A stretch of 64,000 nucleotides of DNA, taken from Pelagomonas calceolata. Lineage: Eukaryota > Sar > Pelagophyceae > Pelagomonadales > Pelagomonadaceae. The notes under the pieces were generated by a model, which was given only the letters and a program-made list of their open reading frames with translations, was not told the DNA's origin and made no database searches. Below are positions 5,133 to 64,000 of the stretch, piece by piece (the stretch's first letter is position 1; each line of letters starts with the position of its first letter). Position numbers and translations under genes: made by a program. The DNA is taken from assembly GCA_918797485.1 (NCBI GenBank), contig CAKKNE010000006.1:930001-994000 (forward strand), written 5' to 3'.

Positions 5133-8100
5133 ATGCGGGCGACGGTCCTCGCCCTTGCGGCGACAAGAGCGGCGACGGACTGCCCCATGAGCGTGACGGT
5201 GGACGGCACGGCGTACACCTACGACCTCGACGACCAGTGGCGGAGCGTGCGGTGGGACCTCTTCGCGGCGCGGACGATGGTAGCGGCGCTGCCGGCCATC
5301 GCCGGCGAGGGCTGTACGGAGCGGGCGTGCACGGTGGACAAGGTAGCGGAAGCGATGGTGCGGAGACGGGCGGAGTGCGACCGCGGCAACGCGGAGGTGC
5401 CCCGCATGGCGCACCGCGTGTTCGCGGACCTGCGCAACACGTCACAGGAGGCCGCCGGCGCGTTTGAGGCGTGCGTCCAGCTGAACCCGGCGTGGGAGTT
5501 TAGGGCTTGGGAGGAAGCGGACCGGTGGCGGGAGCTGGGCGGCGTCCTGCTGGACGACGGCGCCGAGTGCGTCGCGCCGTTCGGCGAGGGAGACGCGGGC
5601 GTCGGCGCGTACGCGTTCGCGGGCGGCGCCGCGGCGCCGCCGCACTTTTCCGGCGACGCGCCTCGGCGCGAGACGTACGCCGCCGTGCGGCCGGGCCCGC
5701 CGTTCCCAAGGGCGGGCGGCGCGCGGGTCGAGGCGCGGCGCGGCCCGCTGACGAAGCTCAAGGGGTTTTTCGGAAGCGCGGACCCGGCGCGCTGCGCGCA
5801 CCTCGTGCAACTGGCGGGCCCGCCGTCGACCGACCCGCGCCTCCCGGACGACGCCGCGCCGGCGGTGTGCCTGGACGACCTCGAGCCGCCCTGCGTCGTC
5901 TACAGCTTCGGGGTGGCCGACAGCTGGACCTTCGACGACTTCGCCGCCGCGCGGGGCTGCGAGGTGTTCAGCTTCGACCCCGCCATGGCCCGGCAGGGCG
6001 CCTTCCGGAGGGGCGCGCTCATTCGCTTCGAGCCCGTGGGCGTCGGCAACGAGACGCTGGCGTTTTACAACGGGTCCGACTCGACGTCGCTGTTCGGCGG
6101 CGCCGCGGCGGGGTACCCCGTCGAGACGCTCGCCGACATCATGGCGCGGCACGCGCACCCCTTCGTGGACGTGGTGCGCATGGACATCGAGGGCGCGGAG
6201 TGGCCCGTGCTCGCCGAGATGCTCCGCGGCTCCGTCCGCAGGATCGGCCAGCTGCTCCTCGAGGCGCACTTCTGGGACGAGATCCGGGACAACGCTTCGG
6301 CGTCTTCGCGCAAGGCGGTCGAGGCCCTCCCGCTGCTCGAGGCGCTGCCCCTCGGCCTCTTCGCCCACGCGGTGAATCCGTACGACGCGACGTTCCTGGA
6401 CGAGGATTTGACTCGCATCCACGAGCTCGGCCTGCGGCGGCCGCCCCCGACGCCCCGCGCCGCGACGTGGGCGGTCCTCGGCACGGGCCTCGGCGGCTTC
6501 ATCGTGGCGTCGACGGTCTCGGCCCACGCCTCGGCGGAGCTCGCGGTCGTCGGTACGCGCTCCTCCGCAAACTGCGCGGCGAAGTGGGGCCTGCCAACGT
6601 CGCACTGCGTCGGCTACAAGGAGGCCGCGACCGCTTTCGTGGACGTCGTCTCGGTGCACGTTCCCACGGCCTTTAAGATGGCGTGGGCGCTCGAAGCGTG
6701 CGTCAACGGGAGCGCGAGGGTCGTGCTCGTCGACAAGCCGTTTCCGTCGCTCGCGGCCGTCGCGGAGCTGAGGCGAGCGTGCGCGCGGCGCGGCGCCCAT
6801 GTCGCAGACGGCGCGGCCTTCCCGTACTCGACGGCGCTGTCCGAGGAACTGGGCGGGCGCCCGCGCCGCGCCTCCTACGCGTTCCACCTCGACCTGTGGC
6901 CGGAACGTCGCACGACGCGCCGCCGGCCGCTGTCCGATGCGGTCGACTACCGGGGCGCACCGGGTCGCCTCAACCCGGCGCGGGAGCCGTCGGGCATCTT
7001 CGGCGACCTGGCGTACTACGCGTTCCTCGGGCTCGGGGCTGCGCTCGGGGAGGCTTTGCCGGACGCCGTCGAGTGCCGCGCGCATCGCTTCGACGCCGAG
7101 ACGGGCGCCGCCGTCGACGTCTCCGGGAAACTGGGGGCGAATGCCACGTTCTCGGTCTCGTACGCGGCGACGCCGCGCGACGAGCTCGAGGTCCTCTTCG
7201 AGGCCGGCGGCGTGGTCGCGAGCGGAGTCGTGGGCGGGGGTGATGTTCTGGACGTCCTGCGCCACCGCTTCGCCGACGGTACGACGTCGGACGCGGTCTT
7301 TGAGCGTACCCAGCCGCGCCACGGGGCCGCGGCGAAACTCGTGGACGCGCTGTCCAAGCTGTCAATAGGCGATCGCTCATCGGCCGCGGCGCGCGGCGCC
7401 GCGAGGAGGGCGGAGCGAGCCCAGGCCCTCGTCGACGCGTGCGCGCGCTCCGCCGCGACGTACGACGGGGGCGCCGACCGCCGTGGCCTGAGCGCGGCCA
7501 TCCCGCGCGCGGCGGAGTACCTGCGCACGGGCGTCGCGGCACTCGACGCGCCTCGCCTGCCGTCCGGACTCCTCGCGGAGCTCCGGCTCGGCCTGGGCGC
7601 GGCGTTGGCACTGCGACCGCGATCCGTCGTCTACGACGACGCGCAACGGCCGAGGCTCAAGACGTCGCTTTGCTCGCGCTGGGAAGGCACGCGGCGGCCC
7701 TGTGCTGCGTTGGGTCCAAGCGCCCTCTCCACCAAGCTCGTCGACGCGATGAGGGAAAGCGTCCTGCCGGCGGCGGTCGCCGCGGTCGGCGCGCCGTGCG
7801 AGCTGCTGTCGGTCAGCGTGGACGTCGCCGGGGGGTTGAGCAGGGCGCAGCACCCGCACTGGGACCCCGTTCCCGCGCAGTGGGACGAAAAGAGTGTGCA
7901 TTATGTGTTTGTGCCCCTCGCCGACGTGGACGAGGCGAATGGCCCGCTGGAGGCGTGGCCGGCGACCTCAGATAGACGCGGCGACGCGCTCGCCGAGCTG
8001 GCGGGGAGGCCGGTCGCTGCCGCGTGGCGCCGTGGGGGCGGGCCCCTGCAGGCTTGGCCGGTGGACGACGAAGCGGAGGCGTACTTTCGGAGCGTCCCGT

Positions 8101-8234
8101 CCGCGACGCTCGTAGCGAAGGCGGGCCTCGCCTACCTCGCGCGGCCGATCGTCTGGCACCGCGGCTCGGCCAACTCGAAGTTTACGGCCCGCTTCGTCGC
8201 CACGGTCATTCTGCGAGAGATACCGGGAGGTTAA
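5133..8234 (+). CDS. Four-part secreted fusion: GT-like / methyltransferase / Gfo-Idh-MocA oxidoreductase / PhyH-type dioxygenase
   Basis: 1033 codons, no intron, ATG 5133. A short signal peptide is followed by the shared N-terminal module (SVTVDGTAYTYDL, then GCTERACTVDKVAEAM). Residues about 90-130 resemble the start of GT32 sugar transferases (AHRVFADLRN, LNPAWEFRAWEE), but the DXD half is not obvious. Residues 255-400 are a METTL24/FkbM-like methyltransferase: CVVYSFGVADSWTFDDFAA, GCEVFSFDP and VVRMDIEGAEW. Residues 443-700 are a dehydrogenase with a Rossmann start (WAVLGTGLGGFIVAS) and VLVDKPFPS, as in Gfo/Idh/MocA enzymes (EKP loop changed to DKP). The last 150 residues match phytanoyl-CoA dioxygenase-like 2OG-Fe(II) enzymes, with HWD near 906 as the HxD and VWHRGS near 1006 as the distal His. 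A plausible role is successive modification of one glycan in the ER/Golgi; the substrate is unknown. Its stop codon abuts the stop of the minus-strand neighbour. Confidence 0.75.
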   Translation: MRATVLALAATRAATDCPMSVTVDGTAYTYDLDDQWRSVRWDLFAARTMVAALPAIAGEGCTERACTVDKVAEAMVRRRAECDRGNAEVPRMAHRVFADLRNTSQEAAGAFEACVQLNPAWEFRAWEEADRWRELGGVLLDDGAECVAPFGEGDAGVGAYAFAGGAAAPPHFSGDAPRRETYAAVRPGPPFPRAGGARVEARRGPLTKLKGFFGSADPARCAHLVQLAGPPSTDPRLPDDAAPAVCLDDLEPPCVVYSFGVADSWTFDDFAAARGCEVFSFDPAMARQGAFRRGALIRFEPVGVGNETLAFYNGSDSTSLFGGAAAGYPVETLADIMARHAHPFVDVVRMDIEGAEWPVLAEMLRGSVRRIGQLLLEAHFWDEIRDNASASSRKAVEALPLLEALPLGLFAHAVNPYDATFLDEDLTRIHELGLRRPPPTPRAATWAVLGTGLGGFIVASTVSAHASAELAVVGTRSSANCAAKWGLPTSHCVGYKEAATAFVDVVSVHVPTAFKMAWALEACVNGSARVVLVDKPFPSLAAVAELRRACARRGAHVADGAAFPYSTALSEELGGRPRRASYAFHLDLWPERRTTRRRPLSDAVDYRGAPGRLNPAREPSGIFGDLAYYAFLGLGAALGEALPDAVECRAHRFDAETGAAVDVSGKLGANATFSVSYAATPRDELEVLFEAGGVVASGVVGGGDVLDVLRHRFADGTTSDAVFERTQPRHGAAAKLVDALSKLSIGDRSSAAARGAARRAERAQALVDACARSAATYDGGADRRGLSAAIPRAAEYLRTGVAALDAPRLPSGLLAELRLGLGAALALRPRSVVYDDAQRPRLKTSLCSRWEGTRRPCAALGPSALSTKLVDAMRESVLPAAVAAVGAPCELLSVSVDVAGGLSRAQHPHWDPVPAQWDEKSVHYVFVPLADVDEANGPLEAWPATSDRRGDALAELAGRPVAAAWRRGGGPLQAWPVDDEAEAYFRSVPSATLVAKAGLAYLARPIVWHRGSANSKFTARFVATVILREIPGG

Positions 8235-9959
8235 TTAACTAAACTTGCCAGTGAATGTTTCGCGAGCAAACGCCTCGAAGCGGTCGGCGAAGCCCCTCGA
8301 TCGCCGCGCCGCCCATTCCGACGAAGCGAAGCGTGCCGGCGGCGCGGGCGGATCGTACACGGCCGAGCGCGGGGCCGGCGGCGGTGGCACCAGGTCCAGG
8401 TCGCGATGCTCTACGCGGAACCCGGGCACGCAGTTTCCGTTCGCTTCGGCGGCCGCCCGCAGCGCGGCCGCGACGCACGCCAGCGTGGCGCAGGCCGGGC
8501 CGCCGTCGGGCCGTCCGAGCGGGGCCCTGATGCCCGCCGCCTCCAGCTCCCGTGCGAGTTTCCTGTCGAAGTCGTCCGCGTCGAGACCAAACACGACGCT
8601 GGCCCACTCCGTGCCGTCGACGGCCAAGTCCACCCTACACGAGAAGCCTGTGACGAGGGGCAATCGCTCGGCGACGGCATGGGAAGCGTCCGGGCCGAGC
8701 GCATCGACGACCGCCGCCTCGAGCTCCGCCGTCGGCGCCGCCGCCGCGCCCGCCGCGGCGGCGCTCACGTTCGCCGCCCGCAGCGCGAGCACCAAGGCTT
8801 CGCGGTACTGGCCGAACGCGGCCGGCGTGCCGCCCAGCAACCGACGCGGCTCGACGCGACGCTCCCCCCGGCGGTCGCGCAGCAGGAGCGTCATCCGCGC
8901 CGCGCGATCGCGGGGAGACCCGCCGCCCGCGTGCGCCGCGAAGTCCCCCGGCGCCCAGGCCAACGCCAAGCTCTGCACCCACTCGCAGTGCGTCCACTCG
9001 GTACCGCAAAATGTCAACGGCGACCAGAACGCCTGCAGCGAGCCATACGGCAATAATACGAAGCCGGCCGCGTCCGCGTCCACCGCGAGGCCGAGCGCCG
9101 TGTTGTCCCACCAGCCGCAGTCCCGGAGGAGGCACGAGTATCGCTCGGTCGCGAACGGCGCGAGCCACGCGCGGCGCAACAGGGACGACGCGCGGTCGCC
9201 GCCGCGCGTCGCTACGACGACGCCGGTGTTGAACGGTTCGCGCGCCACGAAGGTCGGGAGCGCGTCGACGGCGAGCGTGTCCTCCGCGAGTGCCAGCGCC
9301 GGGTGCGGCGTCGCCATCGAGGTGGCAACGACGTCGTCGTCGACCCAGACGATAGTTTGGTAGGCGCTGGCGCCGCTCTCCAGCAAATCGTGGAGCAGCC
9401 AGAGCTTGAGGTGGTGCGCGCTCCGGAGGGGGCTCAGCTGTCCGACAATCGCGACGCCCTCGGCCACGAGTCCCGTCCCGGACGCGTCGAGCGGGAGGAA
9501 CCCGTACCCGTGCGTTCGCGCGTAGGCCGCCCACGACGTCCACGACGCGCGGGCCACCTCCGGCCGGTCCGACGCGGAGACGACGAGGAGTCGCGTCCCG
9601 TGCACCTGGAGCGTTCCGTGCTGAAGCGGCCGCCGGCCGTCCGTCAGATTCCCGACCGACGCGACGGCGGGCCACGCCGCGGCGGCCGCTGCACCCAGAA
9701 TTACGGCCGCCGCATCGCCTCCGTTTGATTCGCAGGCCGCGGTCGGCCACGCGCATTTGACGCGTGCGCCCGCGGGCAGCGCATCCAGGAACGCCGCCGC
9801 CTCCGTCAACACGCGAGCCGGGTCCGCGAGGGTCAGGGCTCGTAGAACTCCGTCGACGTCGAACGCGAGCCGTGGACCCCTTGCACTATGCGTGCTGCCG
9901 TCCAGGTCCACTTCTACGGGCTGCCCGGCGACCGCCAGCAGCAGGCCGAACCAGCGCAT
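8235..9959 (-). CDS. Secreted glycosyltransferase, GT34/GMA12-like
   Basis: 574 codons from ATG 9959. The signal peptide MRWFGLLLAVAGQPVEV runs into a copy of the shared Asp-Gly module (VEVDLDGSTHS). Residues about 120-340 form a nucleotide-sugar transferase. LLVVSASDRPE starts the fold, LKLWLLHDLLE lies ahead of TIVWVDDDVVA (the metal-binding DDD), and FNTGVVVATRG plus WWDNTAL follow, the order seen in GT34 galactosyl/mannosyltransferases. The C-terminal third carries a second copy of the shared module (CRVDLAVDGTEW, then GGPACATLACVAAALRAA), a position not seen in the other proteins here. It is probably a type II or lumenal Golgi enzyme; donor and acceptor are unknown. Tail-to-tail with the gene ending at 8234 with no base between the stops. 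Confidence 0.7.
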   Translation of the reverse strand: MRWFGLLLAVAGQPVEVDLDGSTHSARGPRLAFDVDGVLRALTLADPARVLTEAAAFLDALPAGARVKCAWPTAACESNGGDAAAVILGAAAAAAWPAVASVGNLTDGRRPLQHGTLQVHGTRLLVVSASDRPEVARASWTSWAAYARTHGYGFLPLDASGTGLVAEGVAIVGQLSPLRSAHHLKLWLLHDLLESGASAYQTIVWVDDDVVATSMATPHPALALAEDTLAVDALPTFVAREPFNTGVVVATRGGDRASSLLRRAWLAPFATERYSCLLRDCGWWDNTALGLAVDADAAGFVLLPYGSLQAFWSPLTFCGTEWTHCEWVQSLALAWAPGDFAAHAGGGSPRDRAARMTLLLRDRRGERRVEPRRLLGGTPAAFGQYREALVLALRAANVSAAAAGAAAAPTAELEAAVVDALGPDASHAVAERLPLVTGFSCRVDLAVDGTEWASVVFGLDADDFDRKLARELEAAGIRAPLGRPDGGPACATLACVAAALRAAAEANGNCVPGFRVEHRDLDLVPPPPAPRSAVYDPPAPPARFASSEWAARRSRGFADRFEAFARETFTGKFS

Positions 9960-10158
9960 CAGCTAGGGCAGCCATGATCCATGATGGCGCGTTGGTCGCG
10001 GGCCGCAGGCAGCCTTGGCGCACGTTTCGGTGCCTCTGGCAGCTCTTGCCAGAGACTGGCAGAGTCTGGCGTGGGCCGCGGACCGAGGGCCCGGGACGGA
10101 GATGCTTCGCGGAGTCCTAACGACGCAAGCAACTACGAAACGAGTTCATTCAAAAGGG

Positions 10159-11971: not shown

Positions 11972-12129
11972 TTTATATGTTTTATACTGGTATACCTAGG
12001 TACCCATATTACAGCGGTGCGGCGCGGCAGCGTCTGCAGCGCAGCGTCGCAGCTGCGACGCCACGCGCCACAGGCAAGGGCAGCGCTAAAGCAGCGCTGA
12101 AGCAGGAGCGCTGGCCACGGCAGCCCGAA

Positions 12130-17979: not shown

Positions 17980-20328
17980 ATGCGGCGCTGGCGTGTATTT
18001 TGCCTGCTAGTGCTGCCCGCGCGCGCCCAGCTCGAGCTGTCCGGAGATCATGCGTCGCCGAGCGTTCGGAGATGGCCCACCGACGTGCGCTGCACCGCGG
18101 CGGACGCGACTCTAGAGGTGAGCCTCGACGACACGACGCGCCGCTACGGCCTCGACGACGCCGGCGCCGTCGAGGCAATCGCGAACGCGACGTGGGGACG
18201 CGCCCCGGCGTCGTACCTTACGCGCGCGCACGCGATACGCGTGGGCCTGGCGGCGCTCGCGGAGACGGATCGGCTCCCGGATCTGGTCGACGCGGTCGAG
18301 CGCGGCGGTTTCTTGCACTTCTTCCCGCGGCCTGCCGTCGGGGACGCGTTGCTGGCGCTCGGCGCGCAGCTCTGCGCGTCCACTGAGGGCGGGGTGCACT
18401 GCGACAACGGCATTGAGTTGCGGAAACTCCGCGAAGCTCCATCACAGGTCAACCTGTGGTTCGCGGCCGACCGGAGTCGCGTCAGCGAACGGTGCGCTGA
18501 CGCGCTCGAGAGCCTCCGCGCGACGTGCGCGGACTATGCCGAGTGCGGACGCACGTTTGCACCGACGCGCGCGCGCGCGGACGCCGCGCTGACCGCTATT
18601 CTACATGGTGGCACGGATCCAAACGGAGGCTGCTGGTACGTCGTCGAGCCGAACATGCGCCTGGGGGCCACGGGCGGCATGCGCGCGCTGCACCTCGTCG
18701 CACGTCAGTTGTTAGACCTAGGGCGGTGCGTGCGTGTCGTGACGCTGCGCGACGCATTCGCAGACGTCGTGGCGGAGGGCTCCGCCGACGTGGCGCGGGC
18801 CGTGAACCTGACGGCTGAGGAATTCGTCCAGTGGCACGTGCCCCTGCGGCCGGAGGATACGGTGATTGTCCCGGAGGTCTCGGCAGATTTCGCCGCGGGC
18901 ATCAAGTACCGGTTGATTGACGTGCGCACGCAGGTGCCGATTCCCGGGGCGGCGCAGATCGTTTCCGAGAGCGCGGACGTCGAAGAAACGGTGAGGGACT
19001 ACGAGGCGCGCGGCGGTATCGTCGCGCGCTACTGCATGGCCTTCCAACCGGGCCACGGGCACCGCCCCGAGCCCAGCGTCTCGGTCCACCTAGGCATCTC
19101 CGACTGGTTGCATAGGGCCTTCTCGGGCAGCGGGCCGTGGGCCGAGGTTTCCCTGCACCCGCGCGACCTCGCTGAAGCTGAGCTGTGGCGACGACGCCCC
19201 ATCAACGGGCGCATGGAGAAGAAGCGCCAGGGGCCGCCCCTCGTCGTCTACGACGACGACGTGCACTGGCTCGACGGCGACGAATTTACAGAAGCGCTCG
19301 GCCGGGCATGGGTCGCTTCCAACCGAAGCGGATCGCCGCCGGTCGCCGTTATGTACGACGGCTTCTCCGGCTCACAGAGATACGACCTAATGAAGAACGC
19401 GTCCGTATACGTGGACCTGAATATGCCGGGCCTCGAGGGCGGCATCTCGGAATTCCTCTTCTTCGACGGGGCGCCGCTGATCCCTGACGCGTTCCTTGGG
19501 ACGGAGCACGACCCGTGCATCGCGCGGGCGCCGGTCACCGATGACGCGGACGTGGTCGCAGGACACGTCATGAGGACGCTAGACACGCTCGCGTCGCCGG
19601 AGGGGGCAAAAGCTCTGGCGGTATGCGCGGACCGGAACTTCGCCAAGGCACGTGCTGTCTTTGGGGACTTCTCCGAGACGTGGCGCGCGTACGAGTTAAG
19701 TCGGCGGACGCGGTTCGTGTTCTTTGCGCGCGAGTTCCTCGACTGGCGCTACGCGGCGCCCTTCGTCGCCTCGGCGTTCGCGCGCCACGCGTTCTCCGAC
19801 GTCGTACTGCTGACGCCGCGCGAACTCGAAGGCAGAGCATTTCAGGCGCTACTGGGCGATACCATGGGGGTGGCAATGGCCAGGCTCGGCGTGCGTCGGC
19901 GAGTTCTTTTGGCGGACGTGCGGAACAAGACGGGCGACGCCGTGCTCGAGCACATTTTCCCGACGCTTTCGGCGGTGCGCGAGTTTACAGTTCTAGTCGT
20001 GGGGCGCGCGACCGCGCCTACGCTCGAAGCGCTTGACGCGGCGGCGGCGGGCCTCGAGCCGGGCGCCTGCGCCCCGGGCGACCGCTTCGTGCTCTGCCGC
20101 CGTGGACCGGGCCTCGACGCCGCGCGCGTGGCCTTGATGCTCGTCGCCACCCTGGAGCGACCGGCTCAGCTGGATGCGTGCGGCGATCTCCGGCGCCACG
20201 GTCTCTTTGCCCAGCTCGCGGCCGTGATGTACCCCAACGCCCTCAACGCGCTCGACGAGGCCTGCGGCGACGCCATCGAGGCTGGGAGGCTCCATAACTT
20301 CGGGCGCGCCTTTTACCACGCCGAGTAG
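17980..20328 (+). CDS. Secreted GT-B-like glycosyltransferase with second paralogous domain
   Basis: 782 codons from ATG 17980 (six earlier codons lead to a GTG). Signal peptide MRRWRVFCLLVLPARAQ. Residues about 40-80 carry the shared module in weaker form (ATLEVSLDDTTRRYGLDDAG). The transferase region opens CWYVVEPNMRLGATGGMRAL and contains PPLVVYDDDVHWLDGDEF and ASVYVDLNMPGLEGGISEFL. The last is a donor-site-like segment repeated in the gene at 26216 (SVYVDLHLPGLEAGVCEFAM). The C-terminal domain (RFVFFAREFLDWRYAAPFVA ... ARHAFSDVVLLTPREL) also has a counterpart there. The two genes are therefore paralogues, but this one lacks the C-terminal methyltransferase of the other. Likely lumenal, adding a sugar to a glycan; specificity unknown. 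Confidence 0.7.
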   Translation: MRRWRVFCLLVLPARAQLELSGDHASPSVRRWPTDVRCTAADATLEVSLDDTTRRYGLDDAGAVEAIANATWGRAPASYLTRAHAIRVGLAALAETDRLPDLVDAVERGGFLHFFPRPAVGDALLALGAQLCASTEGGVHCDNGIELRKLREAPSQVNLWFAADRSRVSERCADALESLRATCADYAECGRTFAPTRARADAALTAILHGGTDPNGGCWYVVEPNMRLGATGGMRALHLVARQLLDLGRCVRVVTLRDAFADVVAEGSADVARAVNLTAEEFVQWHVPLRPEDTVIVPEVSADFAAGIKYRLIDVRTQVPIPGAAQIVSESADVEETVRDYEARGGIVARYCMAFQPGHGHRPEPSVSVHLGISDWLHRAFSGSGPWAEVSLHPRDLAEAELWRRRPINGRMEKKRQGPPLVVYDDDVHWLDGDEFTEALGRAWVASNRSGSPPVAVMYDGFSGSQRYDLMKNASVYVDLNMPGLEGGISEFLFFDGAPLIPDAFLGTEHDPCIARAPVTDDADVVAGHVMRTLDTLASPEGAKALAVCADRNFAKARAVFGDFSETWRAYELSRRTRFVFFAREFLDWRYAAPFVASAFARHAFSDVVLLTPRELEGRAFQALLGDTMGVAMARLGVRRRVLLADVRNKTGDAVLEHIFPTLSAVREFTVLVVGRATAPTLEALDAAAAGLEPGACAPGDRFVLCRRGPGLDAARVALMLVATLERPAQLDACGDLRRHGLFAQLAAVMYPNALNALDEACGDAIEAGRLHNFGRAFYHAE

Positions 20329-20626
20329 GGCCCACAGCCCACGGCGGAACTGGTCAGCAACCCAAGGATACGTCGCCATATCATAGCAGGTACCGTGGTA
20401 CCGTACCGTAGGTACCTACGGTAGAGAGAGAAACCTACTAGCCCCTTGCGTCCTGCGGCTTGTAATATGTGTACCCCTTACATAACACTGCGACATACTC
20501 TTGCTACCGCAGTATACGGTACCATGGTACCGTGGTACCGGTACCATGGTACGCGCCAGCTTGTACTCCCACCTACGGCTGCCCGGGAACTGCCCAGCGC
20601 ATGGATGCTCCCTCGCGCATCAGAGC
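20329..20626. other. Intergenic region rich in GGTACC/CCATGG palindromes
   Basis: Between 20389 and 20552 the sequence repeatedly uses GGTACC, GTACCGTAGGTACC and GGTACCATGGTACC, so that both strands read nearly the same and long hairpins can form. A similar GTAC-rich patch lies at 43600-43640 and a weak one at 11985-12005. No gene is apparent; an ATG at 20546 falls inside the palindromes and is not chosen as a start. Confidence 0.6.
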
Positions 20627-29180: not shown

Positions 29181-30173
29181 ATGAGATGGAGGAATGTGGC
29201 CGCCTGCCTCGCGGTAAGCCTCGACGCGCTCCGGCTCGAGATCACGGTCGACGACACCACCGAGTTCCTAGACTTCGACCGCTGCTCGACCGAGCTGGAG
29301 CTGGTAGGCATCGCGCACGCGTTCGTGCACCGCACGGACCGGACGTTGCTCGCGACTCACCCAGACGATCGGGCCGCCTCGCAAGAAATCGTAAACCACA
29401 TGACGCGGATGCAGGCCGACGCCGCGGGCCCGCCGTGCGCTGCCGCGCCGCTGCCCGCTGGCGCGCTCCCGCCCGTCTGGACCTGGGCGGACGCCCACGC
29501 GCTCGCGGCCCAGGGCAAGCTCCGGCTCAATTTCGGGGGAGGCGCTGCGAACGACTTCCACGCCTTCGACGACCGGTATACAGGGTGGGTCGCCGTCGAG
29601 GGGCCTAACGACCCGGACGGCCACGACTACGGCTTCTGCTTGGATGGGAAAGAGAGCTGCGGCAAGCCGTGGTGCCTCTGCCGGGACCTGACGCGGGAGC
29701 GCTTTCCGCTCGACGACGGGTCCGTCGCCTCCATACTAACCGAGCACGCGCTCGAGCACATCAAGTGGGAGTACTGGCCGCACATTCTTCGCGAGTTCCA
29801 TCGAATCTTGCGCGTGGGTGGCGTCGCGCGCGTTGCGCTCCCGGACTACCACGCACCGGGCGCCGTCCGCCGCGTATTCTGGAACACAACGGTGGCCGCC
29901 GAGCACAGGATCCTTGGGGGTCACCACGCGTTCACGTCATTTGCTTCCGTGCGACCTTTTGTCGAGGCGTCGCCATTTGAGGCCGTCTACTGGCTCCACT
30001 ACTGGGACGGGAGTGCCCTGGATGGACGACCGCCGTCGGAGGACGAGCCGCTGCCCTTCACGCGCAACCCGATTGACTACGGCCTCGGGTTCGTGAAGCG
30101 GACGCCGGACCATCCGACCATGAACGAGGGCGTCACGTCCGTCGTCGTCGACCTCGTCAAGCTGGCCCGATGA
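29181..30173 (+). CDS. Secreted class I methyltransferase with shared N-terminal module
   Basis: 330 codons from ATG 29181. Signal peptide MRWRNVAACLAVSLDALRLE, then the shared module (LEITVDDTTEFLDFD, followed by a helix of about 40 residues). The catalytic domain has LRLNFGGGAANDFHAFDDRY near 114, ASILTEHALEHIKWEYWPHI near 182 and FHRILRVGGVARVALPDY, a Methyltransf_11-type arrangement with His-Ile after the EHALE motif. It contains several Cys (CLDGKESCGKPWCLC) that could pair in the ER lumen. Acceptor unknown; in this context a sugar hydroxyl is likely. Single exon. Confidence 0.75.
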   Translation: MRWRNVAACLAVSLDALRLEITVDDTTEFLDFDRCSTELELVGIAHAFVHRTDRTLLATHPDDRAASQEIVNHMTRMQADAAGPPCAAAPLPAGALPPVWTWADAHALAAQGKLRLNFGGGAANDFHAFDDRYTGWVAVEGPNDPDGHDYGFCLDGKESCGKPWCLCRDLTRERFPLDDGSVASILTEHALEHIKWEYWPHILREFHRILRVGGVARVALPDYHAPGAVRRVFWNTTVAAEHRILGGHHAFTSFASVRPFVEASPFEAVYWLHYWDGSALDGRPPSEDEPLPFTRNPIDYGLGFVKRTPDHPTMNEGVTSVVVDLVKLAR

Positions 30174-43819: not shown

Positions 43820-44617
43820 TTACTGTTTCTTGTGCAAAATCGTGAGTTGTCCGAGCGGCTCGACTTGAAAGTCGGGAAACTGGGCAGCGATGTTGTGATG
43901 GACCTTGTCGTTATCTTCGATGAAGCAAACGCACTCGTCGCTTAAATAAGGATAGATTGCATTCAGCGTGCGGATAATCGCCGTGACCGTGTGCGGTCCG
44001 TCATCGATGAATACGTCGATCACGTCGCCCTTGAACACTTCCGCGAGCGCGGCCGGGTCGGGAGCGTACGCGTCGAACTCGTAGAGTTCAACGTCCCTTG
44101 CGGCGAACGCACCCTTTTCCTTGAGAAATGACAGGTTCTCCGCGGCGTATGACAGGTCTATGTCCAAACCGACGACGCGCCCGCTCGGGAACAACTCGGA
44201 CCAGGTGGCCAGTCCGGACCCCCGTAAAATACCGACTTCGACGACAGTCGGCGCTCGCTTGGTATCGACGACCTTTCGGAGAGCCGTGGCGTAATGCTTT
44301 CCGTAACCGTGCCTGTCGGTGGACATCCGATCGCCGCCGACCATGCGAGACCGGGCGTTCAGGGCCTCGAGCGTCGCCGCGACGTTCCCGCCTCGTACGC
44401 GCACGTCTTTTGCGCTTATCTTGTTCCGTTCGACCTCCACATAACCGCCGTAGCGCTGCTCCGCGCGCACGAGCCGCGCGTGCAGATCGTGGACGTCCTC
44501 GCTCAGGTCGCTGCCGAGGCTCTGCGCCTCGCCGTCGATGGACAGCTGCAATTCGTGCCAGGCAGCGTGCGTGGCAGTGAGAAAGAAGGCGAAGCGACGG
44601 TTCCACCGCAGCCTCAT
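43820..44617 (-). CDS. Secreted Methyltransf_24-like methyltransferase
   Basis: 265 codons from ATG 44617; the frame extends to 44746 but with no other ATG. N-terminus MRLRWNRRFAFFLTATHAAW is a signal peptide followed by the shared module start (LQLSIDGEAQSLGSDL). The catalytic part has APTVVEVGILRGSGLATWSE (motif I), GRVVGLDIDLSYAAENLSFL, DVIDVFIDDGPHTVTAIIRT and ECVCFIEDNDKVH, the layout of cephalosporin-hydroxylase-like/Methyltransf_24 sugar methyltransferases with an acidic DDGPH metal site. Close relatives of the catalytic domain occur at 47685 and at the C-terminus of 44894. Acceptor unknown. Confidence 0.72.
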   Translation of the reverse strand: MRLRWNRRFAFFLTATHAAWHELQLSIDGEAQSLGSDLSEDVHDLHARLVRAEQRYGGYVEVERNKISAKDVRVRGGNVAATLEALNARSRMVGGDRMSTDRHGYGKHYATALRKVVDTKRAPTVVEVGILRGSGLATWSELFPSGRVVGLDIDLSYAAENLSFLKEKGAFAARDVELYEFDAYAPDPAALAEVFKGDVIDVFIDDGPHTVTAIIRTLNAIYPYLSDECVCFIEDNDKVHHNIAAQFPDFQVEPLGQLTILHKKQ

Positions 44618-44893: not shown

Positions 44894-47482
44894 ATGCGAG
44901 CGCGTCGGCTGCTATTAGCTGTTTGGAGCGCGGTGCCTCTTGGGGCCGCCGACACGGCTGGTGTCGCCTTCGACGCGGCTGCCGCGCTCGCCGCGCTCGC
45001 CCCGCCCGCGACGGGGCACGACGAAACCACGTTTCTGAGAGCGCTGCGCGAACGCGTCGACCGACGGCTCGCGATTATCGACACGCACGGCAGCGCGCCC
45101 CAACCGGCGAAGCCCGAAGCGGTGCCCGAGGACTGTCGGACTCTTTTTGACCCCGAAACTATCGCAGAGGCGCGACGCGCGAGCGTCGGCTGCTCCCGGC
45201 TGGCGTATTCGTCCATCGACATCGTCGGCGAGCACCCGCCGCTCGTGGGCCCCCGTGGCGACGGAAGTTGCGTTTTTGTGTTCGTCGGCGCCGAGACCCT
45301 GCGCCAGCCAACAGTCGATTTCGTGTACCTGTTGCACCGTCGCTCCGTAGCCACCCAAGGCTTTTCACGGCGCCTCTTCTCGAAGCTACCGAAGCTCCTG
45401 CCGCACGTCCTCTTTCCGGGCAAGTGGACTGCGTTTTTCGACTCCAAGCTCCATCTCTACGGTACGACGCTCGACGAGCTATCAAAAGCGTACGACATGC
45501 GCGTCGACGACCGCGCGTTGCCCTTCACTGCCTTTCCCCACCCGCTCAAGGTCCGAAAGAACGTGAGCAGCGCCTTCGAGTGGATGCGGTTCGAAATTGA
45601 GGTGATCCTGGAGGAATTCTCCGATCGGGTGGCGAGTGTGGACGCGCTCCGGAACCAATTAGCACGCTACGTCGCGCGGACCCGGGACAGCGTGCCTCCG
45701 CGCGCCTACACGGCCTTCATCGACGGCGCGCTGCTGCTGCAGCGCGATGCCCATCAACTGTTTGGGCCGTGGTGCGCCGAAACTATCAGAGAGGACTCGA
45801 GCGACCGGGACCAGCTCAGCTTCGCGTTCACCGTGGCGCGGTTGCGACTGGAGCCACGGCTGCTGGACAAGTGTGTCACGATCGCCGCAAACCGCACTTT
45901 GTGTCACTGGTTTGACGACGACTCGCTGGGCGCGCTCCACCGGATCAGCTACGAGGCGAGCAGGAACATCGTCGATAACGGTGATTTCGCTGCTATCGAC
46001 GATGTGGCCGCCAAATATCTGGGAAGTTCTACCTGGGCCTACGGCGTGGCCGAGTCTTGGTCCCGAAATGGGCCTTCAGTCGTCTTAATCAAAAGAGGTG
46101 ATACCGACTGGGCGGGGACGCAGCCAGTTCTAGGCAGCTACCTCCAGGGCATCCAGAACAGAGGGAACTACATCTACCAGACCGTGGTCTTTCCCGCCGA
46201 CGGTTTTTACAGCATTTCCTTCTACGCGTGCAGCCGACCCGGCAGGTACGCACGGACGAGCCTCAGGGCGACCGTGACTCGAGCCGGTCACCAGGAACCC
46301 GCGGTCGTCGTGGAGGAGCTGCTCCTGGGCTACTCCTTTACGAAATACGAAGCCACGTTTTATATGGAGGCGGGATGCGCGACGCTCGTAATCATGAACG
46401 ACGGGCCGCCCGGCGACCGGACGCTTCTGGTTGACGCGGTGCGGATTGAACGGAACGTCTCCCGCGCCGTAGATTCGATCTCAGAAGTCCCGAGCGTGTG
46501 CCGGTGCCGGATCCTCTTACACCTCAACGGCCGGGAACTACAAATGGACGTGTACGGCGCGGTCGACGCCGGCCTCGCGTCTCGCGTGCTGGCGCCCCGC
46601 GCGGCGCTGGATCGCCCGGTGCACGAGTTTGTGGCGTACGCGCGGACGGTGGGCTGTGCGACGGTCGAGGTCCTCGACCGCAGTGCGGCCGCGGAGGCCG
46701 CAGTGGCGCTGGACGCGGTACGGTCGCTGCTCCGCGCACCGCCCAGTGCGCGCCTGCGCGACGCGGCCGCCACCGAGGCGTTGGTCCTGGCGTGCGGCGT
46801 GGACGATGGGACCGCGCGGGCGATGCCGGCGGAGGTGCTGCTGCACGCCGCCGAGCTCCGCATCACCCAGCATCCCCGGAACGTCGCCGGCGAATACGCA
46901 GCTTACGGACTCCGTATCTCTCGGTACCCCCGGCAGTTTGGCGCGTACGTCGCGTTCCTCGCCGCCGGGCCACTCGTGACGTCGTACCTGGAGATCGGGT
47001 GCCGCTGGGGCGGCGCGTTCGTGTTTACGGTGGAGGTGCTGGGCCGTCTGGGGGAGGCGAGCGGTATCGGAGCCGACGACTTCCGCGCGCTCGCGATCGA
47101 CAAGTGGCAGGAACCCTTGCTGCTCCAGGAGTACGCCAAGGGCGCGGCCGCGCGGTTCCTTAAGCTCGACCCAGCTGGGGCGCCGTTCGCCGAGCTTCTG
47201 GCAAAGACGCCCATGTGGGATCTCGTTCTCATCGACGGTGATCACTCCTACGACGGCGTGCGGCGCGACTTCGACCTCGTGCGGAATCGAACGACGCGCT
47301 ACATCGTCCTGCACGACATTGCGTCGGACGAGCCGTCGTGCGCGGGCGTCCGCCGCTTCTGGCGCGAGGTCCGCGACCAATTCGAGACGCACGAGTTCGT
47401 GGAGCAATACGACGACGTCGACGGCTCGTATTTTGGAATAGGCGTCATTGTGGTGCCGCGCTCCAACGGAATCATGTATTAA
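44894..47482 (+). CDS. DUF616 glycosyltransferase / carbohydrate-binding / methyltransferase fusion
   Basis: 862 codons, one exon, ATG 44894, signal peptide MRARRLLLAVWSAVPLGAA. Directly after it comes the block duplicated at 40936. Residues about 120-310 resemble DUF616 (TOD1/MUCI70-type transferases): WTAFFDSKLHLYGTTLDELS near 178 and AFEWMRFEIEVILEEFSD near 229. Residues 358-515 form a beta-sandwich of the DUF642/CBM kind: NIVDNGDFAAIDDVAAKYLG, WSRNGPSVVLIKRGDTDWAG, YIYQTVVFPADGFYSISFYA. Near 536 lies an internal copy of the shared module (CRCRILLHLNGRELQMDVYG). From 690 a Methyltransf_24 domain follows: TSYLEIGCRWGGAFVFTVEV, DLVLIDGDHSYDGVRRDFDL and IVLHDIASDE. A glycan-binding transferase that also methylates is a plausible role. 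Confidence 0.72.
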   Translation: MRARRLLLAVWSAVPLGAADTAGVAFDAAAALAALAPPATGHDETTFLRALRERVDRRLAIIDTHGSAPQPAKPEAVPEDCRTLFDPETIAEARRASVGCSRLAYSSIDIVGEHPPLVGPRGDGSCVFVFVGAETLRQPTVDFVYLLHRRSVATQGFSRRLFSKLPKLLPHVLFPGKWTAFFDSKLHLYGTTLDELSKAYDMRVDDRALPFTAFPHPLKVRKNVSSAFEWMRFEIEVILEEFSDRVASVDALRNQLARYVARTRDSVPPRAYTAFIDGALLLQRDAHQLFGPWCAETIREDSSDRDQLSFAFTVARLRLEPRLLDKCVTIAANRTLCHWFDDDSLGALHRISYEASRNIVDNGDFAAIDDVAAKYLGSSTWAYGVAESWSRNGPSVVLIKRGDTDWAGTQPVLGSYLQGIQNRGNYIYQTVVFPADGFYSISFYACSRPGRYARTSLRATVTRAGHQEPAVVVEELLLGYSFTKYEATFYMEAGCATLVIMNDGPPGDRTLLVDAVRIERNVSRAVDSISEVPSVCRCRILLHLNGRELQMDVYGAVDAGLASRVLAPRAALDRPVHEFVAYARTVGCATVEVLDRSAAAEAAVALDAVRSLLRAPPSARLRDAAATEALVLACGVDDGTARAMPAEVLLHAAELRITQHPRNVAGEYAAYGLRISRYPRQFGAYVAFLAAGPLVTSYLEIGCRWGGAFVFTVEVLGRLGEASGIGADDFRALAIDKWQEPLLLQEYAKGAAARFLKLDPAGAPFAELLAKTPMWDLVLIDGDHSYDGVRRDFDLVRNRTTRYIVLHDIASDEPSCAGVRRFWREVRDQFETHEFVEQYDDVDGSYFGIGVIVVPRSNGIMY

Positions 47483-47684: not shown

Positions 47685-48824
47685 ATGGGGCAGCGCCAGT
47701 GCTGTGGGGTACGTGTGTGGTTCTTTCTAGCGCTGGGAACAGCGCGCGGAGACGAGCGAGACAGGCATGTATGCGGCCCGCTCAGCTTCGAGCTGGACGG
47801 CGTGGTGCACTATTTGTCCGCGACGCGGATGGAAGCGCCGCACGCGGCCGCGGCGTTCGCGCGGCGCGTGGGCCCGACGTTCTTCGGCGGCGGCTGCGCG
47901 GCGGGCGACACGCGCTGTGTTGCCGAGGCGCTCGTGGCGGACCTTCTAGCCGCGTGCGGCGACGACGAGGTCGAGACGCGCATCGCGCCAATGGGCGGAT
48001 CGGAGTACGAGTGGTGGTTTGCGGAGCAAGACGACACCGGGCGCGGCACGATGAAGGTGCGCCACTACCTCGACGCCTACGAGCGCCACTTTGCCCTGGC
48101 GCGCGCACGCGCGCGCGCGGGACGGCGCGTCGCCCTCCTTGAGCTCGGCGTGCAGTCGGGCGGGTCGCTGGACATGTGGCGCGCGGTCCTCGGCCCGAGC
48201 GCCGAGATCCACGGCGTCGACGTCGACCCGCGCTGCGCGCGGTCGCACGACCCGGCCGCTGGGACCTTTGTGTGGATCGGCGACGCTGGCAACGCGACGT
48301 TCCTGGCGCACGTCCTGGCGGCGGCCGCGCCACTCGACGTCGTCTTGGACGACGCATCGCACCGCAGCGAAGACATGATCGCCGCCTTCGAGGCGCTCTA
48401 CCCGTCCGTGCGGCCCGACGGCGGTGTCTACGCCATCGAGGACGTCGTGACGAATTACTGGCCCTACTACGACCGCGTGCGGGCGGAGGACGGCCTCAGT
48501 TTCGTAGAGTTTGCCAAGCGCAAGGTCGACGAACTGAATGCCTGGAACAGCGAGCCGCGCGTACGCGGCGCCCGGCGAGATCGTTGCCTTACGCCTCCCC
48601 TGCGTCATCGGCGTAATGGTGATTCGCACAGGCACGGTGGCGCGCCGGTGACGGATTTCACGCGGAACACGAGCTCGTTGCACTTCTACGACGGCATCGT
48701 CTTCTTCGAGAAGCGACCGCACCCGATGTGGACGCGCATTGCAGTCGGCACCGACACGCTAGACTACGCGTTCAACATGAACTCAGGGACGGCCGGGGAA
48801 GCCGGAATGGGCACGGTCACGTGA
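47685..48824 (+). CDS. Secreted Methyltransf_24-like methyltransferase with shared N-terminal module
   Basis: 379 codons from ATG 47685 (the frame is open from 47448 but only this ATG gives a signal, QRQCCGVRVWFFLALGTARG). The shared module is clear: CGPLSFELDGVVHYLSATRM, then GGGCAAGDTRCVAEALVADL. Catalytic motifs: VALLELGVQSGGSLDMWRAV, AEIHGVDVDPRC, LDVVLDDASHRSEDMIAAF and GGVYAIEDVVTNYWPYY. Between WNSEPR and VTDFTRNTSSLHFYDGIVFF lies an Arg-rich stretch of about 25 codons (48560-48650) that reads like an in-frame intron or an insertion; the intact frame does not decide. Single enzyme, presumably lumenal. Confidence 0.72.
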   Translation: MGQRQCCGVRVWFFLALGTARGDERDRHVCGPLSFELDGVVHYLSATRMEAPHAAAAFARRVGPTFFGGGCAAGDTRCVAEALVADLLAACGDDEVETRIAPMGGSEYEWWFAEQDDTGRGTMKVRHYLDAYERHFALARARARAGRRVALLELGVQSGGSLDMWRAVLGPSAEIHGVDVDPRCARSHDPAAGTFVWIGDAGNATFLAHVLAAAAPLDVVLDDASHRSEDMIAAFEALYPSVRPDGGVYAIEDVVTNYWPYYDRVRAEDGLSFVEFAKRKVDELNAWNSEPRVRGARRDRCLTPPLRHRRNGDSHRHGGAPVTDFTRNTSSLHFYDGIVFFEKRPHPMWTRIAVGTDTLDYAFNMNSGTAGEAGMGTVT

Positions 48825-52647: not shown

Positions 52648-52662
52648 TTGTGCGAAGCGGCG

Positions 52663-52697: not shown

Positions 52698-52838
52698 CAG
52701 CCCCCCCTTTGGCCTGGGTGCCTATGTAAAGAGGTGCTAGGCGAAAACGCGGATCGCTCGGGTCCCCCCCAGGGGCTACCCAGGGGCTCCGCCCACTAGT
52801 CCTAGCACCGTAACAATAAGGTGGATGGCGGAGCACAA

Positions 52839-56388: not shown

Positions 56389-57351
56389 TTACAAATCTAC
56401 TTCTTTCTTTTCTGGGACACAGTGACGTCGCCAGAGGGCGGTGTCGCCCGGGTATATCATTGCGGCGGCGTCGCAGACGGCGGCGGTGGGGCGCGGTCGA
56501 GGCTCCAGTTGTCGGTCGCACGCCGGGTTGTCGGTCTCGAGCTCGCCGAGGCGACAACCCGGCGCATGCGCAGCAAGGATACGTTCAACGTCGCGCCGCA
56601 GCGTCGGTAGGCACGCAATCTCAGCCTCCGCCCCGCCCTGCCCCGACTCGACGTAGTCGCGCTGCGGCCGCGTGAACCCGGGGGGACCCCAGGCTTCGAT
56701 GGACTCGCCGCTTGAAAGAAGGTGGTTTCCCCACGCCGCCGCATTACGAAACGAGTGAATAGCGTGGCCCGGCGGCGACGATCTCCGGAGGTGGTCGTAA
56801 AGGCTCGCTAGGCGCTCGCACGGGTCGCGAAGAGTGACAAAGACCGGGTCGTTTTGGGGGACGTCGTCCCGCGTGACCTCGTGATGCCCCGACAGCCACA
56901 GCTCCAGACCGCACGTTGCCGGATCCCGGCGTCTCGCATCGCCCAGCGCTTCGAACAAAACGCACGACGCGGTCTTAGACACCCGCAAATAGCGCAACGT
57001 CGGCCGCGGGCGCGTGCGGCGGCGCAATTCTGCCAAGACAACCGCGGTGACGCACCGCGCTGAAGCACAGCCCTCGCCAATCCACGTGGAGGGGTCGTCC
57101 GATAGCGTCGAGAGCTGCGTTTCTAGTACCTCGGACGAGGCGGTCGTGTTCTCCAACAGTCCCGCTGGCACTGTGACCGTGTGCTTAACGCCGTTCACAT
57201 CGAGCTCGACGCTGACGCTGCGTTCGGGTTCCGGAGGCACGCGCCCTTCGATTGGCGTCGCGTCCCGCGCAACGGAATCGTTCGCCTCGAGGCGTGGCAC
57301 GGCTACGTTCGCGGCCGCGGCGGCAGTGGTTGCGACCAGGAACCGCAGCAT
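56389..57351 (-). CDS. Secreted carbohydrate sulfotransferase-like protein
   Basis: 320 codons from ATG 57351. The anchor MLRFLVATTAAAAANVAVPR and following LEANDSVARDATPIEG match the leader of the gene at 39615. The shared module follows (SVSVELDVNGVKHTVTVPAG, then GEGCASARCVTAVVLAELRR). The sulfotransferase core has LRYLRVSKTASCVLFEALGD near 117, where RVSKTASC is the PAPS 5'-phosphosulfate loop, and FVTLRDPCERLASLYDHLRR near 169, with RDPxxRLxSxYxH for the 3'-phosphate, as in carbohydrate sulfotransferases of the Sulfotransfer_2 type. It would sulfate glycans in the Golgi, consistent with sulfated algal polysaccharides. Cys-rich C-terminus. Single exon. Confidence 0.8.
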   Translation of the reverse strand: MLRFLVATTAAAAANVAVPRLEANDSVARDATPIEGRVPPEPERSVSVELDVNGVKHTVTVPAGLLENTTASSEVLETQLSTLSDDPSTWIGEGCASARCVTAVVLAELRRRTRPRPTLRYLRVSKTASCVLFEALGDARRRDPATCGLELWLSGHHEVTRDDVPQNDPVFVTLRDPCERLASLYDHLRRSSPPGHAIHSFRNAAAWGNHLLSSGESIEAWGPPGFTRPQRDYVESGQGGAEAEIACLPTLRRDVERILAAHAPGCRLGELETDNPACDRQLEPRPRPTAAVCDAAAMIYPGDTALWRRHCVPEKKEVDL

Positions 57352-57694: not shown

Positions 57695-59568
57695 ATGAGA
57701 GTGGTACTGCTGCTCGTGCCGGTCGTCGTCGGCCAGGAGCGCTGCTCCATCGAGATTAGCATTGACGGCAGCCCCCAAGTCCTCGAGACGAGCGTACCGC
57801 CGCCGGACCGCGACAAACTCGTAGAGGTGGCAGAGGCCTTCGCGCGGACGCATAAACTCGGGGCGGGGGCGGGCTGCGACAGCACGCAGTGCGTTGCCGG
57901 GCGCCTCGCGGACCAGCTCGCCGCGCGGTGCGCCGTCGACGAGTACCGTACGCGGTCAACGCGCGAGCAGCGCTGCGTGGCGCTCGGCGACCAGCGCGTC
58001 TGTGCGGACCTCGCGCCGACGCTCCTCGGGACGTTCTCTGGTTCCGTAGTAGCGCACTGCCAGATCGGGCTGGCTCGAACGTTTCCCGCGGTCGCGCGGT
58101 CAATTTATGAACATACCGTCAAGCCGCTGGGACGCGGCGACGTCTTCTTCGTCCTTGGCTCGCCGCAGGCGAGTCGCGCGACGGCGCTCGAGTGGCGTGC
58201 GGCCTTCGACCACTTTTCGGTGGCGCAGTTGTTGGTCGCGGACGGGACGGGGCAACTGCAAAAGCTGCAGCTGTGCTTCGCGCACATCGAGGCCGCCGAG
58301 ACGGCCGCCGGGCGTCGCTACGACGCAATCGTGCGCAACCGGCCCGATTTACGGTGGGAGCGGGCCGTGCCCGCGTCCTTGATTTCCCGGACATCGGTGA
58401 CGTACTGCTACGCCTTCGTGGGCGTGTGTCCGCGCGCCTACGTGGATAGCAGCTGGCCCTGCGACGTGCCAGACTCTCCGAACGCGACAACAGCGAACGG
58501 CCATTCGGCGACGCCCGCGTGCGCACCCACGTTTCAGTTCTCGATGGCTCGATCAGCGCCAGCCCAGGAGCGCGCCGAGCGCCACCTCTACAAGGGCTCC
58601 GAACGAGCCCGGCACCTCGCGGCAGCCTTCGAGGATCTGGGTGACGAGCTGTGTGGAAATCCTCAAGGCAAAAGATTCTCAGGATAACCTGACTTACTGG
58701 TTGATTTCCACCCAGGTGACGAGCAGCGCGACGCGGCGCTTGATTTCCTAGCGCTCACGTGTCGCGCGTACGATAGCTACCTGGAAGACTGGGCGCGCCA
58801 CCACGCGCCGCGCAACGGCGCGGGCCGGCTCCTTGCCCGCCACGCGCTCCCGCTCCGAGAAAGTGTTACCGATTTTTTGAAATGGGACCCGGATCACAAT
58901 GACGCGCACGCCCTCTTTGACGCCATCACGCGAGCGGACGAGGCCGGGGCGGTATCGTCGCTGAGGCGCCTCGCGGCGTCGTACGAGACCGAGGCATTAG
59001 GGTACGAACGCGTTGGCGTCGACGGCGCGGGCCCGGGCACGGCCGCTTTCGAGCGCTGGGCTGGTGTTGATGACGCCGTACCGCCGCGCATCTCGTTCCT
59101 GGAGCAGCAGTGCGCGACGCGGCGCGCGTGCTCGAAGCCGGACGGCGCCAAAGGGATCCTGATCGTGTACGCGCGCGAGCTCTGCGCTCGAAGCTTCGCG
59201 GACGACGTCCTCGCGTCGCCGTTTCATTTTAGGGCCCAGCCGCTCATAGACTAGTTTTTTCCCTCTACTATGATTATTTCCGCTCGTTCAACTCCGAGGC
59301 CGCGGTCGCGCTCCAGGTCCTCAATACCGAGGGTGTGCGCCTCTGCGCGCCGCCCGCCGACCTCCGGCTGACGCGTGCGACGGAGCCCAGCGAAAGACGC
59401 TGGGGCGCGTTCAAGCACGGGGGGGATGGCCGCTGGGACGCCGCGGGCATGCCGGCTTCCGAGGCCGTCGCCGACGCGTCGGCGCTCGCACGGGCGTGCG
59501 CCTCGAAGAACCGGTCGTGGGTCGAGACCGGCCGCGGCCACGTACCCTGCGCGTTCGTGATAATGTGA
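57695..59568 (+). CDS. Secreted glycosyltransferase-like protein, three exons including an introner
   Basis: Exons 57695-58640, 58716-59164 and 59233-59568 give 576 codons; introns 75 and 68 bp. ATG 57695 starts a clean signal peptide (MRVVLLLVPVVVGQERC); ATG 57665 is an alternative. The shared module is the clearest in the window: CSIEISIDGSPQVLETSVPP, then GAGCDSTQCVAGRLADQLAA. The transferase part has VAHCQIGLARTFPAVARSIY, GRGDVFFVLGSPQ and RRYDAIVRNRPDLRWERAVP. The last resembles VVNTRFDARL of the gene at 31010, a likely nucleotide-sugar site. Exon 2 gives ALDFLALTCRAYDSYLEDWA and exon 3 HRLVFSLYYDYFRSFNSEAA. Unspliced, the frame stops twice. The first intron is flanked by a perfect 10-bp duplication with internal inverted repeats. 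Acceptor unknown. Confidence 0.7.
58640..58724 (+). mobile_element. Introner: intron with target-site duplication and terminal inverted repeats
   Basis: GGTGACGAGC occurs at 58640-58649 and again at 58715-58724, one copy at each splice border. Inside, TGTGTGGAAATC (58650-58661) and GATTTCCACCCA (58703-58714) are inverted repeats matching at 11 of 12 positions. Splicing 58641-58715 (GT...AG) removes the element exactly and leaves one copy of the duplication. This is the structure described for intron-generating DNA transposons in pelagophytes and Micromonas. Confidence 0.85.
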
Positions 59569-59577
59569 CACTAAGTT

Positions 59578-59717
59578 TTATTCCTCAAGGATTGTCCTCA
59601 ACGCGCCCGCGGCGGCGAGAAAGTCGTCGTCGTCCGCGACCGCCTCGAGCTCGCCGAGCGTGTCCAGAAGCCGGCCGTGCGTGGCGCCCCCCAGCAGCTC
59701 CGCCGCCGCCCCGAGCC
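59578..59717 (-). pseudogene. Fragment of the ARMC2 3' end
   Basis: About 46 codons plus a TAA (59578-59580) are a near copy of the C-terminus of the ARMC2 gene at 61312, ending ALRTILEE instead of ALRTILEV. The copy also includes adjacent 3' flank (GATAATGTGACACT), so about 59551-59717 corresponds to 61271-61448, with a 13-bp indel. No start or upstream coding sequence; a truncated duplicate. Confidence 0.85.
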
Positions 59718-59740
59718 TTCTCCAAGCATAGAGAGCATGC

Positions 59741-59774
59741 GCTAGCGGCCTGTACTTACAGGTAAGACACTAGC
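59741..59774 (+). repeat. Dispersed intergenic repeat, copy 5 (long form)
   Basis: Identical to 39436-39469 for 33 bases (GCTAGCGGCCTGTACTTACA, then GGTAAGACACTAG). It begins just right of the ARMC2 fragment. Confidence 0.75.
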
Positions 59775-60106
59775 AAGCGCAAGCGCCTTAGCAGCCTGGC
59801 GGAGAATCATTGCGAAGGCCTTTGCGAGGCTGCCCTTGCTTGGCAGCAGTGCTCAAACGACCAATCCACGTCTGCGCCAGGCGCTGTTCCATTGCGGGCC
59901 ACCGATGAGTCGGGAGACTGTGTGTGTGTTGTTATAGCCTAACCCCCTCGCCCGCTAACGAGCGGTTGCGAAAGACGAGACTGTGTTGTGTGGTGCGTGG
60001 CCTCAGGCAATATAGGGGCTGTCTCTAAGACTAGCATATCGAGATCCGGCTGGGCAGAACGCAGGCTTTTAAAATCGGTCTTATTCGTCCGATCAAATAG
60101 CACCGA

Positions 60107-61195: not shown

Positions 61196-61311
61196 GCCTG
61201 TCTTGTGTAACTGCCGCATACCCTGCACTAACTTGAATGTACCGTGACCGCATGCGGTACATTAGTCTGCGCGCTCGTGATAATGTCACCGTATTAATGT
61301 GACACTTAATC

Positions 61312-63418: not shown

Positions 63419-63610
63419 CCCTAGTGTCTCACAAGGTAGCTGCATCAGCTGGCTACCCAAACGGGGTTTATACGCAGTTCGTTTATCGGTGTTCGCCGAG
63501 TCATAGAGCTGCCTATAGATTACTATCGTGCGGGGTACGGGGTACGGGAAGGAGGCATGGCTGCCCATAGAGCAGAGCTATTGCAGCACAAAATGAAGTC
63601 GTAGGCATCT

Positions 63611-64000
63611 ATGTTGCTTAGGACAGTGGTCGCGGCAGCCGTGCTGCTGCGCGGCGCGGGCGCATGCACGGCGACGCTGAGCATAGACATCGACGGCGTC
63701 TCGGTGAAGCTCGCGTTCGACAACACGTCCTCTGTGTTCGGCACGGCGCTCCGGCACGTCGCCGAGCTTGGAGACGCCCACGGCGGCGGCCTGATGGGTG
63801 GGAGTTGCGAGACCGGCGACGCGTTTTGCGCCGCCGGCGAGCTCGCGGACGGCGCGCACGCGCTCCTCGCGGAGCGGTGCGGCGACGGCGACGGCGGCGA
63901 CGCGCGTCCCGCGCCGCTGGACGTCCTACAAGTCGGCGCCCACGAAGGAGACAGCCCGGGCGACCCGCTGTACGCCTGGCTGCGGCACCGCGCCGCGCCG
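63611..64000 (+). CDS. Secreted FkbM-type methyltransferase, 5' part only
   Basis: ATG 63611, open to the window edge (130 codons). Signal peptide MLLRTVVAAAVLLRGAGACT, then a full copy of the shared module: TLSIDIDGVSVKLAFDN, GGSCETGDAFCAAGELADGA. The frame then enters LDVLQVGAHEGDSPGDPLYA, the first SAM-binding strand of FkbM enzymes (compare LGFVHIGAHHW at 34587). The rest lies outside the window. Confidence 0.65.
   Translation, partial: MLLRTVVAAAVLLRGAGACTATLSIDIDGVSVKLAFDNTSSVFGTALRHVAELGDAHGGGLMGGSCETGDAFCAAGELADGAHALLAERCGDGDGGDARPAPLDVLQVGAHEGDSPGDPLYAWLRHRAAP

Follow-up and report, generated by a model that had tools for sequence, protein, structure and literature searches.

A small cysteine-bearing module shared by unrelated glycan-type enzymes with signal-like starts in Pelagomonas calceolata

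Analysis of a 64,000-nucleotide stretch of the Pelagomonas calceolata genome (bases 930001-994000 of contig C6, hereafter the window) revealed a module of about 65 residues (62-68) that recurs in proteins of unrelated catalytic classes and forms one sequence family rather than an artefact, a statement that holds for its six clear copies in the window. The module is new at the level of curated families, its fold class is simple and known, and its function, which we infer, may lie in protein-protein docking. The genome comprises 32,445,274 bases in 8 contigs, and the assembly has been described as six nuclear contigs plus plastid and mitochondrion with a total of 32.4 Mb (PMC9481584). Genes are densely packed in the window, and their products have the look of a gene cluster for cell-surface glycans: besides methyltransferases of the FkbM and other types, they include a DegT/DnrJ aminotransferase, a MIOX-domain protein and an apparent fusion of ATP-grasp and methyltransferase domains. 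Positions 1-64000 of the window together with the right flank (C6:994001-1040000) form a eukaryotic cluster of glycan-type enzymes, with FkbM, DegT/DnrJ aminotransferase and ATP-grasp genes near the Methyltransf_24 group; 8 of the 32 Methyltransf_24 matches in the genome fall within 66 kb on C6. The ATP-grasp domain apparently fused to a methyltransferase is encoded by ORF 20501-22645.

One sequence family in the window and beyond

The segments considered in the window, named in the text by one end of their ORF, are as follows.

5175..5384, plus strand: clear copy immediately following the signal-like start in ORF 5133-8234, with FkbM (PF05050) downstream at residues 329-381
8424..8645, minus strand: clear copy close to the C-terminal end of ORF 8235-9959 (9959C), at residues 439-512 of 574
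9684..9878, minus strand: weak segment, possibly a second copy, close to the N-terminal end of ORF 8235-9959 (9959N); domain E 0.0034 with an 18-member HMM and 0.63 with an outside-only HMM
18091..18264, plus strand: weak copy in the N-terminal part of ORF 17980-20328; domain E 0.05-0.3
29226..29414, plus strand: weak copy following the signal-like start of ORF 29181-30173 (Methyltransf_11); domain E 0.1-0.2
44354..44557, minus strand: weak copy following the signal-like start of ORF 43820-44617 (Methyltransf_24-like); E 0.017 with the outside-only HMM
46499..46738, plus strand: claimed copy, unsupported, in the middle of ORF 44894-47482; no profile recovers the segment
47766..47963, plus strand: clear copy following the signal-like start of ORF 47685-48824 (MycE-like sugar O-methyltransferase)
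57004..57222, minus strand: clear copy in ORF 56389-57351, residues 44-116, without the outer cysteines
57737..57937, plus strand: clear copy following the signal-like start of ORF 57695-58687; modelled alone
63659..63886, plus strand: clear copy in the ORF starting at 63611, a methyltransferase-like protein that runs beyond the window end

The six clear copies, in 57695, 47685, 63611, 5133, 57351 (minus strand) and at the C-terminus of 8235-9959 (minus strand), share the form [VIL]-x-[VIL]-[DN]-G ... G-x-G-C-x(4 or 6)-C-[VAT], and in the window copies both this motif and its spacing before the cysteines agree with those in the initial annotation. As a regular expression, the motif found 8 places among the six-frame ORFs of the window, 6 of them genuine, compared with a mean of 1.4 and a maximum of 4 in 100 residue-shuffled controls. 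When each clear copy was omitted in turn, the HMM built without it recovered it from 625 ORFs with E values between 8e-5 and 0.22, ranking first or nearly so among unlabelled ORFs. An HMM built exclusively from 12 copies outside the window recovered 57695 (2e-11), 47685 (3e-8), 5133 (2.5e-7), 63611 (8e-7) and 57351 (4e-6), whereas the top-scoring reversed ORF reached 0.24. The ranks after these five were taken by 44617, 9959C, 29181, 17980 and 9959N; here the C-terminal copy had a domain E of 0.07, but it had been recovered at 8e-5 in the leave-one-out search, and the weak N-terminal segments lay at E 0.02-0.6. Thus, from at least nine N-terminal copies claimed initially, those five are clear by HMM and the weak ones are next-ranked, so that the N-terminal segments in 44617, 29181, 17980 and 9959N may be regarded as plausible, not individually proven, on these profile scores. 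Two copies had also been placed elsewhere in the chain; the one at the C-terminus of 8235-9959 stands, and the mid-chain segment of 44894 was rejected, being missed by both the leave-one-out and the outside-only profiles.

Extending the search to the whole genome, as had been proposed, yielded 12 further clear copies at L021, L006, L004, L032 (two), L033, L082, L087, L088 and L109 and in two divergent genes at L134/L146. These were found through genome-wide DNA patterns, through the regions upstream of Methyltransf_24 genes and by profile sorting. The patterns spanned at most 35 places, and each gave many chance places that were then sorted by HMM; because they were derived from the window copies, the search favors copies of the double-cysteine form. 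With four of the six window copies matched by one of the patterns, the genome may be expected to contain about 20 copies of this kind. A single 63-residue query searched against its own genome matched only itself. The interval C6:935-1040 kb (about 105 kb) contains 12 of the 18 clear copies, a figure inflated by the closer scrutiny given to the window and its flank; among copies found by the genome-wide patterns only, the proportion is 7/13, and of the 9 pattern-found copies beyond the window, 3 are located in the 46 kb to its right.

The inner cysteine pair, C-x4/6-C, is conserved in the module, a feature that belonged to the search motif and hence is not independent evidence. The outer cysteines, which formed no part of that motif, follow an all-or-none distribution: in 16 testable copies, both are present in 7, neither in 9 and a single one in none (Fisher p 9e-5, a value that treats related copies as independent). 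This is the pattern expected of a disulfide running from the first strand to the end of the last helix, and it supports the view that the outer pair, where present, would close the module in this manner. The covariation of the outer pair thus lends support to the disulfide envisaged in the initial annotation.

A domain outside the catalytic folds

The carriers of the module include FkbM, Methyltransf_24, Methyltransf_23 and GT2-like proteins, to which it is attached at N- or C-termini; the sulfotransferase previously listed as a carrier (57351) has no Pfam support. Modelled alone with AlphaFold2 from six alignment rows, the module was predicted with confidence (pLDDT 90, pTM 0.76) as a beta-beta-alpha-alpha arrangement. 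The full-length model of 47685, whose overall confidence is low (58.7), places the module strands at residues 29-37 and 40-47 and its helices at 51-62 and 76-90; residues 95-123, with pLDDT below 50, separate these elements from a Rossmann methyltransferase. The catalytic part of this protein resembles the sugar O-methyltransferases MycE/SpnK, with E 2.8e-16 against MycE over residues 130-262 and a fold match of Z 15.6 over residues 106-343. The MycE/SpnK matches cover only residues about 105-343 and leave the module outside, and a bacterial relative of 47685 (L131) aligns from residue 115, starting directly at the methyltransferase without a module.

No module was found in the stretches upstream of 12 other FkbM genes, nor in those upstream of 10 Methyltransf_24 genes outside the cluster; since genes of both families thus occur elsewhere without it, the module is an optional attachment. 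On the basis of these module-less upstream regions and of the full-length 47685 model, the possibility that it forms part of the FkbM or Methyltransf_24 domain was rejected. Taken together, the confident module-only model, the low-confidence linker, the later-starting catalytic matches, the module-less bacterial relative, the variety of enzyme families and the C-terminal copies support an autonomous domain, as far as the predicted structures indicate, that would lie outside any catalytic fold. The initial annotation had proposed the same, and the structure predictions made for the module alone and for full-length 47685 indicate that the segments are not the first strands of catalytic domains.

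Fold relatives without family membership

Searches of Pfam-A, NCBIfam and PHROGs, with both modules and whole proteins in the case of Pfam, found no family matching the module, so that the earlier remark that no family answered its description holds for these libraries. Sequence-profile searches of the PDB with the module gave nothing noteworthy, the module model had no significant match in a BFVD fold search, and viral scans with single module proteins detected no relative. Among solved structures, the module model most resembled the VCPIP1 VCPID (Z 5.0-5.7), the PLAA PFU domain (Z 5.2) and the SNF5 RPT domain (Z 4.5-5.0), the next, unrelated row standing at Z 3.4. Through their separate comparisons with the module, three of these structures (9mps VCPID, 2k89 PLAA PFU and 5l7a SNF5 RPT) fall into one match group. 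A Z of about 5 could reflect a common arrangement, and hhalign scores fell near the shuffled range; hence, we claim likeness of fold and not membership, a likeness that itself rests on a predicted model.

The PFU domain of PLAA/Doa1 (PF09070; 2k89) has a beta-hairpin followed by two helices, superposes with Z 5.2 and 2.2 A over 51 residues and has a similar GDD...A..F pattern. Unlike the module, it is a cytosolic domain found in a WD40-PFU-PUL architecture, whereas the module comes with a signal-like start, conserved cysteines and methyltransferase or glycosyltransferase domains; moreover, PF09070 was unmatched in 12 modules at E <= 10 and in whole proteins, whereas the control, a true PFU protein of the same genome (L057), matched at 2e-8. 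The VCPID (9mps and related structures) likewise combines a beta-hairpin with two helices (Z 5.7 over 57 residues), but shares 10% identity with the module and is cytosolic, binding p97, which is absent from the lumen. It is reported as a docking element on an enzyme, with a beta-hairpin and two helices of which the latter bind VCP, and as lacking domain conservation in the PDB (PMC12394548). The SNF5/INI1 RPT domain resembles the module model in its beta-beta-alpha-alpha order, at Z about 5 over 55 residues, and is protein-binding, but it is nuclear, occurs as tandem repeats and has no such cysteine pairs, in addition to the absence of a Pfam match and an hhalign score within the shuffled range.

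Two module-like segments have no cysteines and may be intermediate forms. One lies in L033 (C6:3091 kb), as a second segment downstream of the first module and ahead of the methyltransferase, and the other is the C-terminus of a PhyH dioxygenase, L063 (C4:3349.8 kb), where a weak SNF5 repeat match (E 0.5) is in register.

As to origin, the module could have branched off from the PFU/SNF5-RPT class, a protein-binding domain of the cytosol or nucleus having been recruited to the lumen; this derivation is compatible with docking, and we regard it as possible, if doubtful. The fold matches, the register of the Cys-less segment ending the PhyH protein and the GDDPxxVAxxFC pattern that L057 has in common with the module point in this direction. 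Against it stand the hhalign comparisons, in which PFU scored 11.97 (shuffled columns, 95% at 10.9 and maximum 12.9) and SNF5 12.9 (shuffled maximum 14.5); these scores, near or within the shuffled range, do not establish homology to either.

A proposed role in the secretory lumen

Most carriers have a short hydrophobic, signal-like start, as judged by hydropathy only, and no convincing transmembrane helix, from which it would follow that most of these enzymes are dissolved in the lumen of the secretory pathway and depend on some factor to hold them. We favor, at a probability of about one in two, the reading that the module is a lumenal protein-protein docking module that holds glycan enzymes together or in the Golgi via a common partner. 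This reading draws on the reuse of one cysteine-bearing module in unrelated enzymes, at either chain end, and on a fold class of protein binders. Enzymes with a signal peptide and no membrane anchor would carry the module at the N-terminus, sometimes at the C-terminus; the shared partner that the module would bind could be a membrane protein or a further module, and this binding would keep different glycan-modifying enzymes together or in the Golgi. A candidate anchor is encoded at L082 (C5:3954 kb): besides the module, this protein has a signal-like start, a single transmembrane helix and a long coiled coil but no recognised enzyme domain, a composition that would suit a membrane anchor. Golgi retention, complex formation and glycan docking had all been suggested initially; the protein-binding nature of the nearest folds and the signal-like starts without a membrane anchor in most carriers favor the first two, and we infer the Golgi location from the signal-like starts and from pelagophyte cell biology.

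Alternatively, the module could be a propeptide or folding and export aid, a small cysteine-bonded cap that assists the enzymes in folding or trafficking without binding a partner, as its usual position directly after the signal-like start and its conserved cysteines would allow. We consider this improbable, as copies are found at the C-termini of 8235-9959 and, apparently, of L006, one copy sits on the non-enzymatic membrane protein L082, the catalytic folds of the carriers are unrelated and relatives of the same enzymes manage without it. Somewhat less credible still is a glycan-binding module bringing enzymes to a polysaccharide acceptor, in the way of carbohydrate-binding modules. The carriers do include several sugar-modifying enzyme types, but Trp and Tyr are depleted in the modules (1.6% of residues vs 4.2% outside the module in five proteins, p 2e-5), every copy has a net acidic composition and the nearest folds are protein binders. 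Finally, it is very improbable that the segments simply represent the initial strands of the respective catalytic domains, or that they match a loose motif by chance. In favor of this reading, the motif is short and the scores of a few weak copies approach noise. Against it, the outside-only HMM recovers the window copies, the stand-alone fold is confident, a low-confidence linker precedes a complete catalytic domain and copies exist at C-termini, which refutes this reading for the six clear copies; it may still apply to the weak 17980, 29181, 44617 and 9959N.

Golgi enzymes are usually retained by their own membrane anchors, typically in a type II arrangement. The docking reading can be taken a step further, to a module that serves as a lumenal address tag and brings soluble, anchorless glycan enzymes together on a membrane-bound scaffold, for example L082, so that Golgi vesicles carry ready-made sets of theca enzymes; we put this forward tentatively, as rather unlikely in its full form. 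If true, it would represent an organisation of Golgi enzymes differing from the usual type II membrane anchor. To our knowledge, no theca biosynthetic genes of pelagophytes have been identified so far. Pelagophytes possess an unusual perforated theca, which is made in Golgi vesicles (PMC12168098). This theca is a plausible product of the module-bearing enzymes. Anchorless secreted enzymes of a globally abundant alga share one small module with no counterpart in the curated libraries that were searched, and this module offers both a sequence tag for finding theca-type enzymes and a testable hypothesis of their organisation. Among the carriers, the protein encoded by ORF 56389-57351 (minus strand) ends in KKEVDL, which loosely resembles an ER-retrieval signal.
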